Translations under genes and position numbers: made by a program | Origin: Ideonella paludis | Lineage (GTDB): Bacteria; Pseudomonadota; Gammaproteobacteria; Burkholderiales; Burkholderiaceae_C | Reading direction: 5' to 3' | Assembly: GCF_018069865.1 (NCBI RefSeq) | Contig: NZ_JAGQDG010000001.1 | Span: 434,001 to 498,000, forward strand | Length of the DNA: 64,000 nt | In this document: positions 509 to 33,806 of the stretch, piece after piece | Position numbering within the stretch: position 1 is the stretch's first letter | Layout: every line of letters begins with the position of its first letter | The notes under the pieces: model-generated | What the model saw: the letters and a program-made list of their open reading frames with translations, nothing else | Databases searched by the model: none | Told to the model about the DNA's origin: nothing

Positions 509-1309
509 GTGGGTTTCAAGCTCGTCACGCTCAATCTCAACGGCATCCGCTCCGCGGCCACCAAAGGCTTTGTGGAGTGGGCCGAACAATCTGTTGCTGA
601 TTGTATTGGCGTCCAGGAAGTCAAAGCACAGGCGGCCGACATCGAGGGCCGGTTTGAGCAGGTGGCCCAGATGCCAGGCTACTTTCATTTCGCCCAGAAA
701 AAAGGCTACTCGGGCGTGGGACTCTATACCCGCCATCAACCGAGCGACGTGATTCGCGGCCTGGGCGTGCCCGAGTTTGATGACGAAGGCCGCTGGGTCG
801 AACTGCGCTTTGACAAACCCGGGCGCAAGCTGTCGATCATCAGTTGCTACTTCCCCAGCGGCTCCTCAGGCGAGGAGCGCCAGCAAGCCAAGTTTCGCTT
901 CTTGGCGGCCATGGCCCCACACCTGCAAGCCCTGCGGGCGGAGCGCGAATTCATCTTGGTGGGTGACCTCAACATCGCCCACCGCGAGGCCGACCTGAAG
1001 AACTGGAAGGGCAACCTCAAGAACAGCGGCTTTCTGCCCGAGGAGCGGGCTTGGATGACCCAACTGCTGGACCCGGCCCAGGGTGGGTTGGTGGATGTGT
1101 ACCGCCGCCTGCACCCGGACACGACCAACGAGTGCTACACATGGTGGAGCAACCGTGGCCAGGCCTATGCCAAGAACGTGGGCTGGCGACTGGACTATCA
1201 CATCGCGACTTCAGCGGTAGCTTCAACGGCAAGAGGTGCTTCGATTTTCAAAGCCTCTAAGTTCAGTGACCACGCGCCCTTGAGCATCGACTACGACATG
1301 AACATCTGA
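509..1309 (+). CDS. xth: Exodeoxyribonuclease III (AP endonuclease), with exchanged 3' end
   Basis: Base-excision-repair nuclease of the exonuclease III fold, 266 residues, normal family length. Residues seen: N11 in [10 protein letters not shown]37 in GVQEVK, the [16 protein letters not shown] block, and D254-H255 in the C-terminal FSDHAPL, matching the catalytic Asp-His of E. coli ExoIII. I chose GTG at 509 because GAAGGA (495-500) sits 8 bases upstream and the protein then begins [12 protein letters not shown]; longer versions read into pyrE. The last 37 codons (1196-1306) are AT-richer than the rest: 1201-1260 has 30 G+C of 60. A second, diverged version of these codons lies at 4019-4132 behind the restriction-modification genes. 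This tail therefore appears to have arrived with the island. The gene looks intact and functional. Confidence 0.93.
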
Positions 1310-1337
1310 CGTGCCTCATGCAACGTCCCGCATGCGA

Positions 1338-1395
1338 ATTCAATGTTGAATCACTATGGTTTTGACATTTATTTAATATTTGATTAACATTAATC
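1338..1395 (+). promoter_or_regulatory. Promoter of the restriction-modification operon with two palindromic operator candidates
   Basis: A consensus -35 TTGACA (1362-1367) is followed after 17 bases by TAACAT (1385-1390), a good -10. Two perfect palindromes with 2-base centres flank this. ATTCAA-TG-TTGAAT (1338-1351) lies just upstream of the -35. GATTAA-CA-TTAATC (1382-1395) covers the -10 and the expected start of transcription. Their centres are 44 bp apart, about four helical turns. 1321-1400 has only 26 G+C in 80 bases. The layout suits autoregulation by the downstream ribbon-helix-helix protein; binding is inferred. Confidence 0.75.
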
Positions 1396-1419
1396 GTGGT
1401 CCAGTCGCGGAGGATGCTG

Positions 1420-1647
1420 GTGAGCAATCAGAAGTCTGGGGGGCGCCGTGGCCGGCCTCCGCGTTCAGACGGGGTCAAGGGCGTGCAGAAGGGGTCGAGG
1501 CTTCAGATCAGTCTGACCATCACCCCAGACATGCTGGTGAAGGTTGATGGCCTTGCTGCCGCGATGGGGCAGACAAGGGCTGCCGTCATCAATCTGGCCA
1601 TCTATCGCCTGCTGTCGCAAGAGAGTGGTGCTGGCGCGCAGTCGTAG
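1420..1647 (+). CDS. Ribbon-helix-helix DNA-binding protein, candidate controller of the R-M operon
   Basis: A 75-residue basic protein, first gene of the restriction-modification operon. Residues 9-15 (RRGRPPR) resemble an AT-hook. Residues 28-35 (RLQISLTI) are a likely beta-strand followed by two helices (36-49, 52-66), the CopG/Arc type of ribbon-helix-helix fold. I chose GTG 1420 because CGGAGG (1408-1413) is 6 bases upstream. ATG 1414 would abut the Shine-Dalgarno and GTG 1396 would sit at the predicted transcription start. The methyltransferase gene begins 31 bases after its stop. The likely role is repression or timing of the operon through the palindromes at 1338-1395. Most known R-M controllers are helix-turn-helix proteins, so this type is unusual. 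Function is inferred from fold and position. Confidence 0.7.
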   Translation: MSNQKSGGRRGRPPRSDGVKGVQKGSRLQISLTITPDMLVKVDGLAAAMGQTRAAVINLAIYRLLSQESGAGAQS

Positions 1648-1678
1648 CGCCAGCTCGCGCCTCACATCGGAATCGAAC

Positions 1679-2998
1679 ATGCCAAAGCGTCAATACAAGG
1701 TTGTTTCTCTGTTCTCCGGCGCTATGGGTCTGGATATCGGACTGGAGAGCACGGGGAGATTCAAGACACTCGCGGCCGTTGAGCTCCGCGCCCCCTTTTG
1801 CGAAACCATTCGAGCGAATCGGGATGCAGGCCGAACCAGCTCTCGAAAAATGAAGGTCTACGAGGGCGATATCCGCGAACTGTCTGCGGAACAGCTCATG
1901 GACGACCTCGGCATCAAGCCCGGCGAGTTGGATCTGTTGGTGGGTGGCCCCCCCTGCCAGTCGTTCAGCACCACAGGACGCCGAGGCACCGTTCAGGATC
2001 CGCGCGGCACCTTGCTCTGGGATTTCCTGCGGTTCGTTGAAGTGCTACAGCCCAAGTTCTTCTTGATGGAGAACGTGCGCGGATTGGTTTCGGCGGCTAT
2101 ACGCCACAGGCCTATTGCCGAGCGTCCTGACAAGGGTGGCGCACCCTTGGAGGCTGACGAACTACCTGGGTCAGTCCTGCGCAAGTTTGTTGCTGACTTG
2201 AGAGCATCAACTGCGGCGGACTACCGCATGGATGTCTTCGAGGTGAACGCTGTTAACTATGGCGCCCCGCAACTTCGTGAGCGGGTTCTCTTCATCGGCA
2301 ACCGCTTTGGCAAGGTCGTCGAGTTCCCTGCACCGACTCATGGTCAGTCGGACGGACTGAAGCCAATGTCCACGCTCCGCGATGTCATCGGCGGGCTCCA
2401 CGAACTGTCGCCAACCGTGTTGGACTTCAGTCCTCGCAAGAAGTCCTTTCTGGCTCAGATTCCGCCGGGGGGGAACTGGCGCGCGCTGCCGGAGAACCTG
2501 CAAAAGGAATCCATGGGGAAGGCGTGGTTTGCGAAAGGCGGACGTTCTGGTTGGTGGCGTCGCCTGAGTTTTGACCTGCCGTCCCCCACCATTCTGACCA
2601 TGCCGAATCATGCGAGCACGGCGCTTTGCCATCCCGAGCAGCTGCGTGCCTTGACTTTGCGTGAATGCGCGCTCATCCAAGAGTTCCCGCCCGCTTGGAC
2701 CTTCTGTGGGACTGCACAGGAGCAGTACGCCCAAGTGGGCAACGCCGTACCGACTCGCTTGGGCCTTGTTGCCGGGCAAGTGCTTGCGCATGAACTCGAC
2801 CGCGTCACGGCTCCGGCTAAGATTCAGAAGGCAGGTTCATTGCACGATGACAATGTGCGCATCGTCTATCTGCAGTCCCACGTTAGAACGCGCAAATGGT
2901 TCAAAAAGGGACAAGCCGTGCTGTGGGCGGACGGTGATGGGAATGCTGATGCTCACCACACGGGACCCGTAACCAGTAGGCGGGTCAGATCGGTGTAG
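1679..2998 (+). CDS. DNA (cytosine-5-)-methyltransferase of a type II restriction-modification system
   Basis: Adds a methyl group from S-adenosylmethionine to C5 of cytosine in a recognition site, protecting host DNA from the partner endonuclease. The 439 residues carry the family motifs in order: I LFSGAMGLDIGL (11-22), IV GGPPCQS with catalytic C93, VI ENV (131-133), VIII QLRER (198-202), and IX-X from TLRECALIQEF to QVGNAVP (352-358). The IPPGGNW stretch lies in the usual target-recognition region (about 210-320). About 80 residues follow motif X, a longer tail than minimal enzymes have. The start ATG 1679 precedes MPKRQYKVVSLFSG; upstream in-frame codons read through the regulator gene. 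Recognition sequence cannot be read from the protein. Codon use and GC are unlike the flanks. Confidence 0.95.
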   Translation: MPKRQYKVVSLFSGAMGLDIGLESTGRFKTLAAVELRAPFCETIRANRDAGRTSSRKMKVYEGDIRELSAEQLMDDLGIKPGELDLLVGGPPCQSFSTTGRRGTVQDPRGTLLWDFLRFVEVLQPKFFLMENVRGLVSAAIRHRPIAERPDKGGAPLEADELPGSVLRKFVADLRASTAADYRMDVFEVNAVNYGAPQLRERVLFIGNRFGKVVEFPAPTHGQSDGLKPMSTLRDVIGGLHELSPTVLDFSPRKKSFLAQIPPGGNWRALPENLQKESMGKAWFAKGGRSGWWRRLSFDLPSPTILTMPNHASTALCHPEQLRALTLRECALIQEFPPAWTFCGTAQEQYAQVGNAVPTRLGLVAGQVLAHELDRVTAPAKIQKAGSLHDDNVRIVYLQSHVRTRKWFKKGQAVLWADGDGNADAHHTGPVTSRRVRSV

Positions 2999-3068
2999 GC
3001 ATTAGCAAGCCGGAGAGCTTGCAAGATTTGGCGTTAACCTGCCGGCTTCGTACACATCGAAGCCAAAA

Positions 3069-3953
3069 ATGCCTGTGCGCCCTCGCCGATTTGCCCGACA
3101 GAACCTCGCGGATGCTCTTTCCCCTGGTGTGCACAGTGCCATCGTTCGAGAGACGGATAGCCTACTGGAGCGGAGGCTGGCCAAAGCAAACGAGGTCACC
3201 GATATCAGGCAGACCAACTTCAATCCGTTCCTACTGCTCATCACCTCGCCCGTCTACAACATCTTCAGCCCGTACGAGGTTGCCGAGCGCCTTCAACTGG
3301 GAAGCTCATTCCATGGTGATGACACTTCTTTCGGGCGCTTTGCAGAAGAGAAGATCCTCCCGCTATTTGGCGCAGCTCTACCGGCCCAGAAAGACCGGCT
3401 GAACAGGGCTTTAGCAGCGGTCTGGGAGCCGATTGACCGTTCAATGGAGATAGAGGGTCATACGTACATGATGAGCATCAAGGCTGGCCCCTGGACGATG
3501 AATCAGTCCCATGCGAACGGCATGATTGAGAAGTTTCCAACCGTTCATGCGAGCACGGGTGCTCGCTGCATGATTGGAATTACCTACGGGCGCTATGCCG
3601 ACCTGAACAACAAGCCGGCCTTGGTCGAAGCGAGCCTTGGCCATCCTGACTGGTTTGACTACCTGGTCGGCAAGGATTTCTGGGAGTTTGTAAGTGGCGT
3701 CAGGGACGTCCATGTGCACATCTTCAAGGCCATCCGTGAAGCACAAGCCCAGTTCGCTGAGCGGCACCGCGACGAAACCTTCCACGAGCGGTTGATTCGC
3801 AATCGGTTGGACATCGCCGCATCGTTGCGGCGGAAGTTCGACCTGGACAAAGAAGACGACTTCTGGGAGACCCTTTTCAACAACGCATTCGAGGGCGGAG
3901 ACGAGTTACCCCAAGCAGGTGCCGCTGCTGACCTCGACACCCCGGAGCAGTAG
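3069..3953 (+). CDS. Putative type II restriction endonuclease
   Basis: A 294-residue protein encoded 70 bases after the methyltransferase on the same strand, the normal place for the cognate endonuclease. I do not recognise its exact family. Residues about 128-149 read MEIEGHTYMMSIKAGPWTMNQ. An acidic residue followed by a hydrophobic strand ending in x-Lys and then a Gly-Pro turn is compatible with a PD-(D/E)xK nuclease core, but the canonical (D/E)xK acidic residue is replaced by Ser. Other conserved-looking blocks are FNPFLLL near residue 57 and DFWEFVSG around 222. There is no helicase, methyltransferase or membrane segment. The call rests mainly on operon position and size. ATG 3069 is the first good start and has no strong Shine-Dalgarno; a 6-bp inverted repeat (3005-3022) lies in the leader. 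Confidence 0.7.
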   Translation: MPVRPRRFARQNLADALSPGVHSAIVRETDSLLERRLAKANEVTDIRQTNFNPFLLLITSPVYNIFSPYEVAERLQLGSSFHGDDTSFGRFAEEKILPLFGAALPAQKDRLNRALAAVWEPIDRSMEIEGHTYMMSIKAGPWTMNQSHANGMIEKFPTVHASTGARCMIGITYGRYADLNNKPALVEASLGHPDWFDYLVGKDFWEFVSGVRDVHVHIFKAIREAQAQFAERHRDETFHERLIRNRLDIAASLRRKFDLDKEDDFWETLFNNAFEGGDELPQAGAAADLDTPEQ

Positions 3954-3984
3954 ACGCCCCGCCACGATGCCCGTCAGCATCAAG

Positions 3985-4007
3985 CCCGCAATGAATGTGG
4001 GTTTTTT
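3985..4007 (+). terminator. Rho-independent terminator closing the R-M operon
   Basis: Stem CCCGCA (3985-3990) pairs with TGTGGG (3996-4001), including one G-T pair, around loop ATGAA, followed by six T (4002-4007). A/T pairs with AA at 3982-3983 extend it. It lies 31 bases after the endonuclease stop and about 11 bases before the displaced xth tail, so it marks the right end of the inserted unit. Confidence 0.75.
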
Positions 4008-4018
4008 GGGACTCCTTG

Positions 4019-4132
4019 TACCACGTCGCCACTCCCAGCCTAGCCACCACCGCCCACGCCGCCGCCATCTACAAAACGCAGAAGTTCAGTGACCACGCCC
4101 CCTTGTCGGTGGACTACGACTTCAGCCTGTGA
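4019..4132 (+). pseudogene. xth: Displaced 3' end of xth (37 codons plus stop)
   Basis: Read in frame, this stretch encodes YHVAT...[16 protein letters not shown] and a TGA stop, the C-terminus of exonuclease III. The joined tail at 1196-1309 has exactly the same length, and 22 of 37 residues are identical. This copy is GC-rich like the host (4021-4080 has 41 G+C of 60), whereas the tail now on xth is not. This is therefore probably the resident tail, cut off when the restriction-modification unit entered. It has no start codon or Shine-Dalgarno and is taken to be untranslated. The upstream break lies in the about 10 bases after the T-run at 4007. Confidence 0.85.
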
Positions 4133-4353
4133 AGCAGCACGTAGTGCAGATACATTGCTCTGCGCTTCAGGGCTTTCCTAGGGGTTGCGATACATCCGCA
4201 CACACCACCGACATCCTGTGACTTTAAGGTCGTCGTTTCCATGACGACTTCACGTTCTGAGGGCTGCTGAGGGCGTATGGGCGCTGCTACATTGCCCTGG
4301 AGCGCCCCGACGAGAGGGCGTGTTTTTTTGCCACCCACTCGTTGAGGTTCTTC
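4133..4353. other. Intergenic region with two hairpins
   Basis: No gene found. GTCGTC (4229-4234) and GACGAC (4243-4248) form a 6-bp stem around 8 bases. CGCCC (4303-4307) and GGGCG (4316-4320) form a short stem followed by TGTTTTTTT (4321-4329), a terminator-like signal just ahead of the outer-membrane protein gene. It may end read-through from the xth side, or act as a leader attenuator. The stem is only 5 bp. Confidence 0.4.
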
Positions 4354-5001
4354 ATGCAGTTCCTGTCTCGTTTTTGCGCCTTGGCCCTGACCGCGCTGTC
4401 CGTCGGCACGACTCAAGCGGCCGAACCCTATGCCGCCATTGGCGCCCCCGGCGTGATGCTGGGCATTGCCCAGCCCGTCTCTGACACCGTCACCGTGCGC
4501 CTGGACTTGGCCACCATCGGCACCCGCGACAAATCGGGCGTGGAGCAGGGCATCAATTACAAGGGCCAGTACAAATCGAACCGCACCGGTTTGTTCGCAG
4601 ACTGGTTTGTGGCCGGAGGCTTCCGCCTGACGGGTGGCGTGACGGTCAACGACACCAAGTTCGACCTCACTGCGTTTGGCGATGGCACCCCGATCAAGAT
4701 CGGTAACACCAGCTACGCCACCACCACCGCAGACCGTTTTGTGGCCAACATCAAATTCCCCTCCACCACGCCCTACATCGGCATTGGCTGGGGCCACAAG
4801 ATGGGCAACAGCGGTTGGGGCTTTGTGGCCGACCTCGGCGCCTCCATCGGCAAGGCCACGGTGGCCACGCGCGTCGAAGGCCCCCTGCTGAGCCAAGTCA
4901 GCCAGGCCGACCTTGACCGCGAAACGCAAGAGTTGCGCGACGGCGTCGGCAAGGTCCGAGCGCTGCCGCAGTTGTCGGTCGGGGTAAGCTACCAGTTCTG
5001 A
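4354..5001 (+). CDS. Small outer-membrane beta-barrel protein
   Basis: A 215-residue exported protein. MQFLSRFCALALTALSVGTTQAA is a typical signal peptide. The rest alternates polar and hydrophobic residues as in barrel strands and ends in Phe (SVGVSYQF), the terminal aromatic recognised by the barrel assembly machinery. The length suits an eight-stranded barrel of the OmpW or OmpA-like type, but I cannot fix a family. ATG 4354 was chosen because GTTGAGG (4341-4347) lies 6 bases upstream; the in-frame TTG at 4342 sits inside that Shine-Dalgarno. It is followed by its own hairpin at 5011-5034. Confidence 0.75.
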   Translation: MQFLSRFCALALTALSVGTTQAAEPYAAIGAPGVMLGIAQPVSDTVTVRLDLATIGTRDKSGVEQGINYKGQYKSNRTGLFADWFVAGGFRLTGGVTVNDTKFDLTAFGDGTPIKIGNTSYATTTADRFVANIKFPSTTPYIGIGWGHKMGNSGWGFVADLGASIGKATVATRVEGPLLSQVSQADLDRETQELRDGVGKVRALPQLSVGVSYQF

Positions 5002-5010
5002 CCCTCACCC

Positions 5011-5034
5011 AGCCTCTGCATTTGGGCAGAGGCT
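5011..5034 (+). terminator. Hairpin after the outer-membrane protein gene, overlapping the next ribosome-binding site
   Basis: AGCCTCTGC (5011-5019) and GCAGAGGCT (5026-5034) form a perfect 9-bp stem with a 6-base loop, followed by TCT only, so the U-tract is weak. The 3' arm contains AGAGG, the only Shine-Dalgarno-like sequence near the hydrolase start at 5046. Folding would both hinder transcription and hide that site. Confidence 0.55.
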
Positions 5035-5045
5035 TCTCATGGCAA

Positions 5046-5684
5046 ATGCTGCGCTACCTCACCCTCCCCGTCACCGCCTTTCAACAAAACTGCTCGCTGA
5101 TCTGGTGCGACCAGACCATGGAGGGCGCCCTCATTGACCCGGGCGGTGAGGGCGAGGGCCTGAAGGCTGAAGCCCAGCGCTTGGGCGTCAAGCTCACCGC
5201 GCTGTGGCTGACCCACGCGCACATCGACCATGCCGGCGCCACCGGCACCTTGGCGCGCGAGTTGGGCCTGCCCATCATCGGCCCGCACCCGGGCGATCAG
5301 TTCTGGATCGATGGCCTGCCGCAGCAAAGCAAGATGTTCGGCTTTCCCGAGGCCGAGACCTTCACGCCCACGCGCTGGCTGGCCGACGGCGACAGCGTGA
5401 GCTTGGGCCACGCCACCGTGGCCGTGCGGCATTGCCCTGGGCACACCCCCGGGCATGTAGTCTTCCATGCCGCCGAGATCTCGCGCTGCTTTGTGGGCGA
5501 TGTGCTGTTCGCGGGCTCGATTGGCCGCACCGACTTTCCCGGTGGCGACCACGACACGCTGATCAACAGCATCACCCAGCGGCTGTGGCCCATGGGCGAC
5601 GACACCATCTTCATCCCTGGCCACGGCCCAGAAAGCAGCTTTGGGCGCGAACGGCGCAGCAACCCCTATGTGGGCAACACCTGA
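5046..5684 (+). CDS. Metallo-beta-lactamase-fold hydrolase (glyoxalase II-like)
   Basis: A 212-residue cytosolic enzyme of the hydroxyacylglutathione-hydrolase-like branch (YcbL type). It shows the metal motif THAHIDH (HxHxDH), then HCPGHTPGHVVF, GDVLFAGSIGRTD and the final IPGHGPES, which supply the dinuclear metal ligands. The family cleaves thioesters; the substrate is not known here. It lacks the C-terminal glutathione-binding domain of classical glyoxalase II, as YcbL proteins do. ATG 5046 opens MLRYLTLPV; the in-frame TTG at 5022 lies in the preceding hairpin. The stop is 2 bases from a MITE-like element. Confidence 0.85.
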   Translation: MLRYLTLPVTAFQQNCSLIWCDQTMEGALIDPGGEGEGLKAEAQRLGVKLTALWLTHAHIDHAGATGTLARELGLPIIGPHPGDQFWIDGLPQQSKMFGFPEAETFTPTRWLADGDSVSLGHATVAVRHCPGHTPGHVVFHAAEISRCFVGDVLFAGSIGRTDFPGGDHDTLINSITQRLWPMGDDTIFIPGHGPESSFGRERRSNPYVGNT

Positions 5685-5686
5685 GG

Positions 5687-5956
5687 CTAGGGTCTGCTGA
5701 CATACAAATCCTGCCCGCGCAGGAGTGTCCAAGGGCGCTGGAGTAGGCGCGATCCGCAGCCCGGGCTGGTGCCCGGGCAAGGTGAGCAACGCCCGCCAGC
5801 ACCCTTGGACGTCCTGCCCTCAGGGTGAGTCCTACAGGCCACGCCATTCGTTGTTGCGCCGCTTGCCCGCACAGAGGTGCGGGCGGCGCAGCGCGCCTAG
5901 ACTGGCATGGCCTGTAGGGCTCACGCGGGTAGGATTTGTATGTCAACAGACCCTAG
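5687..5956. mobile_element. MITE-like inverted-repeat element with CTAG at both ends
   Basis: The outer 33 bases are inverted repeats. 5687-5719, beginning CTAGGGTCTG, matches the complement of 5924-5956 at 31 of 33 positions. CTAG at each extreme may be a 4-bp target duplication of the YTAR kind made by IS5 relatives, or TA may be the duplicated site as for IS630. Inside is a second inverted repeat, 5825-5846 with 5903-5924 (20 of 22), enclosing GCCCGCAC-agag-GTGCGGGC, plus a hairpin GCCCGGGC-TGGT-GCCCGGGC near 5759-5778. No plausible gene is encoded. It fills most of the gene-free stretch 5685-6094. Confidence 0.75.
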
Positions 5957-6094
5957 CAGCCCCACCTGCGTCATTTGACAGCTTGTGCGGGGCGAGCCCC
6001 CTTGGCGACACTGGTGTGCCGCCGCTTTGGCTGACGTCCTTGACGCGCAGCCTCTGCGGGCGGTTCACACCACAAGACGCTGGGAGAGCCCGCC

Positions 6095-32707: not shown

Positions 32708-33806
32708 TCACCCCACCGCCCAGGCAGACCTCGCCGTCATAGAGCACGGCGGATTGCCCGGGCGTCACGGCCCATTGCGCCTGCGCAAAGTCCAGCCTGA
32801 AGTTCGGCCCGAGTGCCGCGCTCAAGGCGCCGGGTGAGTCCGCCTGGCGATAGCGGCTCTTGGTGCCATAGGTGGCCGCCGTGGGCGGCACGCCCGCCAC
32901 CCAGCTCGCGTTGTCTGCCTCCAGCCATTGGTATTGCAGCGCCGGGTGGTCATGGCCTTGCACCACCACCAGCGCGTTGCGCTCCAGGTCTTTGCGCGCC
33001 ACAAACCAAGGCTGGTGCTCACCCCCGCCGCGCGGCGCTTTCTTCTCCTTGACGCCGCCAATGCCCAAGCCCTGGCGCTGGCCCAGGGTGTAGAAGCTCA
33101 GGCCCACATGCTGGCCGAGTTTGCGGCCCCGCTCATCCACGATGGGGCCGGGCTGGTGCTTCAGATAGCGGTTCAGAAACTCTCTGAAGGGCCGCTCGCC
33201 GATGAAGCAAATGCCGGTGGAGTCCTTCTTCTTGGCATTGGGCAAGCCGATCTCTTCGGCCAAGCGCCGCACTTCTGTTTTGGGCAACTCGCCCACCGGA
33301 AAGAGCGTGCGTGCCAGTTGCGCCTGGTTCAAGCGGTGCAAGAAGTAGCTCTGGTCTTTCAGCGGGTCCAGGCCTTTGAGCAGCTGAAAGGCGCCGTCGT
33401 GCTGCCGCACCCGCGCATAGTGGCCAGTGGCAATCTTGTCGGCCCCGCGCGCAAAGGCATGATCCAAAAAGGCCTTGAACTTGATCTCGGCGTTGCACAG
33501 CACATCCGGGTTGGGGGTACGCCCCGCCTCGTATTCGCGCAAGAATTCCGCAAATACCCGGTCTTTGTAGTCGGCCGCGAAGTTCACATGCTCGATCTCG
33601 ATGCCGATGACGTCTGCAACGGCCGCTGCGTCCACAAAATCGATGTTGGACGAGCAAAATTCGCTGTCGTCGTCATCCTCCCAGTTCTTCATGAAGATGC
33701 CGACCACCTCGTGCCCTTGCTGCTTGAGCAGCCAGGCCGAGACAGCCGAGTCGACACCGCCGGAGAGTCCGACCACGACGCGTTGGAGTGGGTTTTTTGA
33801 GTTCAT
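32691..33806 (-). CDS. mnmA: tRNA-specific 2-thiouridylase
   Basis: Activates C2 of the wobble uridine in tRNA Lys/Glu/Gln with ATP and inserts sulfur. 371 residues. The PP-loop SGGVDS (15-20) and the two catalytic cysteines C104 ([11 protein letters not shown]) and C200 ([10 protein letters not shown]) are in place, as is GHYAR. nudJ, usually near it in this bacterial group, lies at 36538-37026 with the FIST/kinase pair between. Confidence 0.96.

Follow-up and report, generated by a model that had tools for sequence, protein, structure and literature searches.

The window, by which we mean the whole stretch of 64,000 nucleotides of Ideonella paludis DNA analysed here, carries an xth gene followed by a restriction-modification (R-M) operon and by a second, isolated 3' end of xth. 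The features of the locus and of the two genes beyond it are the following:

509..1195, + strand: xth body (codons 1-229), apparently native as far as the junction (83-96% identity to the closest relative, G004, per 60-nt bin until that point); a divergent pyrE lies upstream, the same as in relatives.
1196..1309, + strand: xth tail borne by this native body and judged foreign from its 59% nucleotide identity to the G004 tail, a change point at the core and a lower GC content; TA core at 1196-1197, FSDHAP segment inside.
1362..1390, + strand: promoter-like site 5' of the R-M operon (TTGACA-17-TAACAT, 10/12), weak, since one was found against 1.2 expected in shuffles.
1414..1647, + strand: small ribbon-helix-helix-like ORF, possibly a regulator (RHH_1, E 0.0056, under the Pfam cut-off); the frame is open from 1396.
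1679..2998, + strand: C5-cytosine DNA methyltransferase (PF00145, E 8.9e-52; PADLOC MTase_II).
3069..3953, + strand: EcoO109I-type restriction endonuclease (PF14511, E 1.8e-9, 38.1 bits against a cut-off of 22.5; structure 1WTD, EcoO109I, E 1e-8).
3997..4018, + strand: partial attachment-site arm, GTGGGTTTTTTG plus 10 nt up to the TA core (outer 12 nt exact, inner 10 nt mismatching).
4019..4132, + strand: orphan xth tail, read as the native one (in synteny with the G004 tail, to which it is 73% identical); TA core at 4019-4020.
4351..5001, + strand: membrane-protein-like ORF without a Pfam family match, next after xth in G004 (85% amino acid identity).
5022..5684, + strand: ORF next along in G004 (92% amino acid identity), metallo-beta-lactamase-fold-like according to a by-eye reading of its sequence.

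The insert contains only the ribbon-helix-helix-like ORF, the methyltransferase and the endonuclease; an integrase gene was absent from its ORFs and from their Pfam matches. As in EcoO109I-type systems, the endonuclease belongs to family PF14511 and has a C5 methyltransferase as partner, although its similarity to EcoO109I is weak (1e-8 to 1WTD). EcoO109I cleaves at RGGNCCY. The search for relatives of the endonuclease retrieved none from the 398 other genomes of the family and two distant matches from plasmids; an intact island carrying these R-M genes was not found in either set.

The xth ORF spans positions 509-1309, and its last 37 codons (1196-1306), together with the stop, form the joined tail; the second tail, in frame and of 37 codons plus stop, lies at 4019-4129, behind the R-M operon. 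A recount confirmed what a preliminary description of this DNA had reported, i.e., two tails of equal length sharing 22/37 residues (71/111 nucleotides, 64%) and differing in GC (30/60 at 1201-1260 in the joined tail, 41/60 at 4021-4080 in the orphan). That description also held that a foreign 3' end had restored xth and displaced the native one, which can be checked in a relative lacking the island. G004, the closest relative found (98% amino acid identity in the xth body), is such a genome: its xth leads straight into the two ORFs located 3' of the orphan in the window, and its tail is syntenic with the orphan. At the DNA level, G004 and the window are 91% identical on the xth-pyrE side, 82% in the right flank and 73% in the orphan tail, while the bin identity of 83-96% in the body falls to 59% in the joined tail. 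Moreover, a likelihood change point (gain in log-likelihood 21.3) places the passage from relative-like to foreign sequence at -7..+14 nt, counted from the T of the Tyr230 codon. Because of this synteny, the drop in identity and the change point, the orphan tail is, on sequence comparison, the native one and the joined tail the foreign one, in agreement with the claim: the joined tail is foreign to the R-M-free G004, and the orphan has its counterpart there. The switch at the Tyr230 codon, together with the recurrence described below, indicates that the two-tail structure is more than chance.

The G004 tail (L035 2549-2659) is itself rather diverged, being only 73% identical to the orphan next to an xth side of 91%, so that a tail exchange at an earlier time is possible. 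As for the origin of the joined tail, it averages 63% amino acid identity with the three island-type tails compared, against 56% with native tails, where the same difference for the native tails themselves is -6.9 (sd 4.9, maximum 7.9); this is mildly suggestive of a greater closeness to island-type tails, a lean that most other joined tails do not have. The donor codons CGA/TAT, common to the window and G337 within the 45 nt that precede the junction, were also considered, leaving aside several table rows taken from the wrong strand; CGA occurs in island-free hosts as well, and they are not decisive. Lastly, the 17-nt segment AAGTTCAGTGACCACGC shared by both tails, proposed earlier as a recombination site, is the conserved K/R-F-S-D-H-A coding segment of intact tails, and the junction lies elsewhere.

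Orphan tails of this kind are not restricted to the window. An xth-protein search of 60 relatives retrieved them from G006, G001 and the window, and 3/16 genomes of the genus sample harbor one. A tail search was then carried out on 80 genomes chosen by eye from a table of the 399 family genomes (mostly those with at least three xth matches or a weak best match), and nine of them resulted in harboring orphans (G075, G109, G120, G199, G258, G288, G337 with two, G346 and G423). Adding the window, G001 and G006 gives 13 orphans in 12 genomes, and Rhodoferax lacus brings the total to 14 in 13, a lower bound, the tail search having covered 80/399 family genomes. The orphans begin at the Tyr230 codon, with the first codons altered in G346, and the junction falls at the TA of this codon in the window and in 12 other genomes. 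The same codon is used with unrelated cargo in several genera; cargo other than R-M genes between xth and an orphan tail, which the preliminary description suggested looking for, thus does occur. The xth body of G346 (L084) measures 600 nt against 687 in G279, and the missing 87 nt represent either an in-frame difference or an assembly fault.

Nine of these genomes, namely G000 (the window's genome), G006, G075, G109, G120, G199, G288, G337 and G346, share one layout: native xth body, foreign tail, cargo, half an attachment (att) site and native tail, with no integrase seen in the insert. We refer to them as remnants. Three others (G001, G423 and Rhodoferax lacus) harbor at xth an island with a large serine integrase adjoining the att site. 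The G001 recombinase, of 549 residues, abuts the site and matches the Pfam families Resolvase and Recombinase, with a zinc ribbon just under the cut-off; its homologs in G423 and R. lacus are 68% and 70% identical. The islands are arranged as att, integrase, cargo, complete xth copy, end module and att. The second, complete xth is found on the contig and strand of the integrase, towards the far end, in all three genomes; in R. lacus the island is divided between two contigs, and the truncated xth is on the one without the integrase. The integrase end points to the orphan tail in two of them (G001 and R. lacus) and to the truncated body in G423, from which it follows that the islands are found in either orientation, something that a palindromic core would permit. 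In G423, whose cargo includes a type III R-M set, the island xth copy is in direct repeat with the host xth. G258, whose contig does not include the left end, seems to hold the right part of an island of this type: its identity to G168 is 87% in the right flank and 72% in xth; broken tyrosine-recombinase ORFs lie upstream, beside xth. The G001 island also embeds a family-A DNA polymerase-like gene (L033 8957-10840, PF00476), and an ORF of similar look, by eye, is present in R. lacus (L101 13301-15040).

The xth-type integrase was not found in the eight remnant genomes searched (G006 lay outside that sample), the best match in the window's genome being 33% identical and on a different contig. 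The latter genome encodes, outside the window, a distant large serine recombinase (G000:C15:93593-95041, 33% identical to that of G001). Searching plasmids and phages with the integrase gave 17 records each, none with a single place spanning 80% of the query, and its alignment had no match in IMG/VR.

Immediately 5' of the orphans lies an arm with the consensus GTGGGTTTTTTG-TCGCATTGAC, reaching the TA core. Four genomes (G001, G423, G023 and R. lacus) have a truncated xth body that continues into the mirror image of this arm and ends at a TAG stop, and mirrored arms stand at both ends of the G001, G423 and R. lacus islands. Since the truncated xth runs into the mirror image of the orphan-side arm, the attP deduced from these sequences is nearly palindromic around TA. 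Reading by eye the left half of attB, GTGGGCTGGCGCCTGGAC, we found CGC and GAC at the same positions as in the arm and GTGGG 4 bp closer to the core. The LI integrase likewise has a pseudo-palindromic attP and an attB arm motif closer to the core, its zinc-domain motif being shifted by 5 bp, much like the 4 bp seen here (PMC3783163). The enzymes of the xth islands also share the Resolvase, Recombinase and zinc-ribbon domains of the large serine integrases of the A118/LI type; they differ in targeting xth, in a TA core that is itself palindromic and in the use of both orientations.

A 24-nt arm pattern (up to three mismatches) matched 8/399 family genomes, seven of them at xth orphans, and its reversed control one; the eighth, G028, is matched on a contig different from that of its xth. 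The pattern missed the window (G000), G120, G346 and one of the G337 arms. A short expression for the outer motif, applied to 0.66 Mb of collected, overlapping loci plus the window, recovered 11/18 arms with a sole extra match, at position 33788 of the window. In the order sample, a stricter pattern matched 1/245 genomes (seven of the same family, including the window's), not at xth, and the exact attP pattern had no match in IMG/VR. As regards the window's own arm, the outer 12 nt are exact and in register, with as good a score at only 2 of 127,976 window positions; the inner 10 nt do not match, the arm as a whole scores 4.07 where those from which the model was built score 18.7-35.9, and at least six sites in the window outscore it on the full model. 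The preliminary description placed a terminator just before the orphan; the stretch does fold into a hairpin with a T-run (z -1.6), and the partial arm match lies in the same stretch.

The module that separates the xth tail from the att half-site varies. It consists of R-M genes in the window and G006, of a HicB-type gene in G199 and G346 (one common island, 86.9% identical over 1,354 columns), of CcdB in G109, AAA plus RloB in G288, PIN plus Phd in G075, ParE in G120, and, in G001, of an AbiEii-like gene just under the Pfam cut-off and partly common to G258. Rhodoferax lacus has IrrE plus DUF4411, presumably a toxin-antitoxin pair, while G423 has just 136 nt at this position. G337 harbors two modules that look metabolic when their sequence is read by eye. 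Altogether, 9/11 distinct end modules have an R-M, toxin-antitoxin or defence-like character, which is tentative for two of the nine.

In our opinion, these data are best explained (with a probability of roughly 0.6) by the window's insert being what is left, without integrase, of a large-serine-integrase island whose collapse at the core spared the R-M genes. Islands of this family aim at the Tyr230 codon of xth through the TA core and truncate the host gene, as seen in the relatives; the loss could be covered by the island's own xth copy. Where that copy lies in direct repeat with the host's, as in G423, recombination at the TA core would join the host body to the tail of the island copy and delete the integrase and most of the cargo, leaving the end module (in the window, the ribbon-helix-helix ORF with methyltransferase and endonuclease) together with the native tail and half of an att site. 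Canonical reactions alone could lead to this in two steps: a second island would enter the attB within the xth copy of the first, and an attL x attR excision would then pair the outer attL with the inner attR. Direct attL x attB recombination or the integration of a cassette would depend on pairings that are reported to be unproductive (PMC3783163). The outcome would be a whole xth with a foreign catalytic tail and R-M genes fixed beside it; R-M and toxin-antitoxin modules would be expected to resist loss.

In favor of this collapse are the 14 orphans at the same codon, the integrase beside att, the mirrored arms and the complete second xth in all three islands, the arm pattern falling at xth orphans in seven of its eight genomes, the switches at the core given below and the mostly defence-related end modules; against it are the failure of the inner 10 nt of the window's arm, the arms that the pattern missed, the lack of an intact island with these R-M genes among the genomes and plasmids searched, the absence of an integrase of this family from the window's genome, the division of the R. 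lacus island between contigs, the upstream switch of G346 and the four rebuilt genes in which the switch could not be placed. How the islands acquire their xth copies, which do not group as one clade, is not explained by it. We infer, rather than observe, both the way the window's left join formed and the deletion step. Collapse also modifies what had been proposed for the element itself. A foreign tail did come in, as claimed; the mobile entity is probably something other than the R-M unit, and the integrase-bearing islands (G001, G423 and R. lacus) carry a complete xth copy and not a tail alone. Similarly, no integrase is seen in the window's insert, as described; its absence is probably a secondary loss, because a family of large-serine-integrase islands uses this site.

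The position of the left join bears on how such a collapse might proceed. In 4/9 rebuilt genes the switch to the foreign tail falls no more than about 18 nt from the TA core (intervals against close relatives: G075, -1..+15; G000, -7..+14; G337, -13..+5; G288, -13..+18), while in G346 it falls about 31 nt upstream. It could not be placed in G006 (one comparison flat, one giving +51..+64, inside the tail), G109, G120 and G199. The first change-point values of G346, G199 and the control pair G198/G028 were artefacts of an ungapped comparison over a length difference, and G346 was redone; none of the seven island-free control pairs, of which one is a gap artefact, combined an interval less than 20 nt from the core with a gain above 10. 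A homologous exchange in which the truncated host body recombined with the xth copy of the island and the integrase was deleted, or the movement of a finished remnant between species via its flanks, would give a similar structure, and we consider it a possible, albeit unlikely, origin of the window's insert. The direct repeat that it needs is present in G423, and the G346 switch and the island common to G199 and G346 fit it; nevertheless, identical runs longer than 12 nt between host body and island or island-like copy occur in the last 45 nt for only 2/18 pairs, so that crossovers would be expected further upstream, and four switches map to the core. Given these four switches and the scarcity of long identical runs near the junction, the sequences favor recombination at the core for the left join; the G346 switch and the island shared with G199 suggest that homologous transfer happens too.

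It might also be supposed that tail, cargo and half att site circularise as a P|B'-tail cassette, which an integrase acting in trans inserts at the attB of xth, units stacking beside the xth body. The single unit structure with varied cargo and the switches at the core are in keeping with such a mobilisation, and so is the G337 locus (L083 2500-15400), with two stacked tail-cargo-arm units and, beyond the outermost tail, a ccdAB stretch that no arm follows and that is 78% identical to the unit of G109, a genome of another genus; because this stretch follows the two units, the locus looks like three stacked units. We regard this scenario as rather improbable, since it requires an attB x attR-like pairing, reported to be unproductive with serine integrases (PMC3783163), no circle was seen, and the eight remnant genomes searched lack an xth-type integrase. 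Its broader form, in which the 3' end of xth is an integron-like loading dock for integrase-less cassettes (a spare catalytic tail, an R-M or toxin-antitoxin module and half a serine-integrase site) that are mobilised in trans, always rebuild xth and are stacked newest-first, appears just as doubtful; no integron-type integrase was seen in the window's insert. Finally, self-insertion of the R-M unit with a long target duplication, of a kind that is in print (PMC3031569), and later divergence of the copies is very improbable, being largely contradicted by the codon common to unrelated cargo in several genera and by the att-arm-like sequence flanking the orphan, while tails only 64% identical in nucleotides do not support copies of one origin and the joined tail differs from G004 where the adjoining body does not.

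An island collapse at xth has partial parallels in known systems. Prophage e14 inserts into the housekeeping gene icd of E. coli, providing an in-frame replacement 3' end and keeping the native end on the far side as icdC (PMC11148124), which resembles the foreign in-frame end joined to the window's xth and its displaced native end; however, the e14 duplication is of 165 bp with 12 nt changes, against 111 nt with 40 changes here, and the window's insert has no integrase and serine-type sites, with relatives carrying a whole gene copy. CIMEs are decayed elements without integrase that accrete in tandem at one site (PMC5704250); the xth remnants share the loss of the integrase and the stacking, but a CIME retains attL and attR, whereas the left site of the window is the rebuilt xth, with no left arm. 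HE-PICI satellites may carry an intact copy of the gene that they interrupt (PMC10111431), as the xth islands do; there, the elements are phage satellites and the gene a late one of a prophage, while here it is a core repair gene. No paper describing xth as an integration target appeared among the matches listed for open PMC text.

The xth locus is a real and recurrent case, best read as the decay of an island of which R-M genes and an exchanged enzyme tail remain. If this is right, defence and toxin-antitoxin genes can become fixed after the loss of the element that carried them, and mobile elements can remodel a core repair enzyme at its catalytic end. The locus would also define a serine-integrase family with a natural chromosomal target, whose island-borne copy of the target gene may serve as a backup of the gene, as a reserve site for landing, or in both roles.

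Downstream of the locus, positions 5686-5957 of the window hold a MITE-like element with 34-nt terminal inverted repeats (94% complementary) and more inverted repeats inside; in the same genome it has five near full-length places, counting that of the window, besides a place of 160 nt and some shorter pieces.
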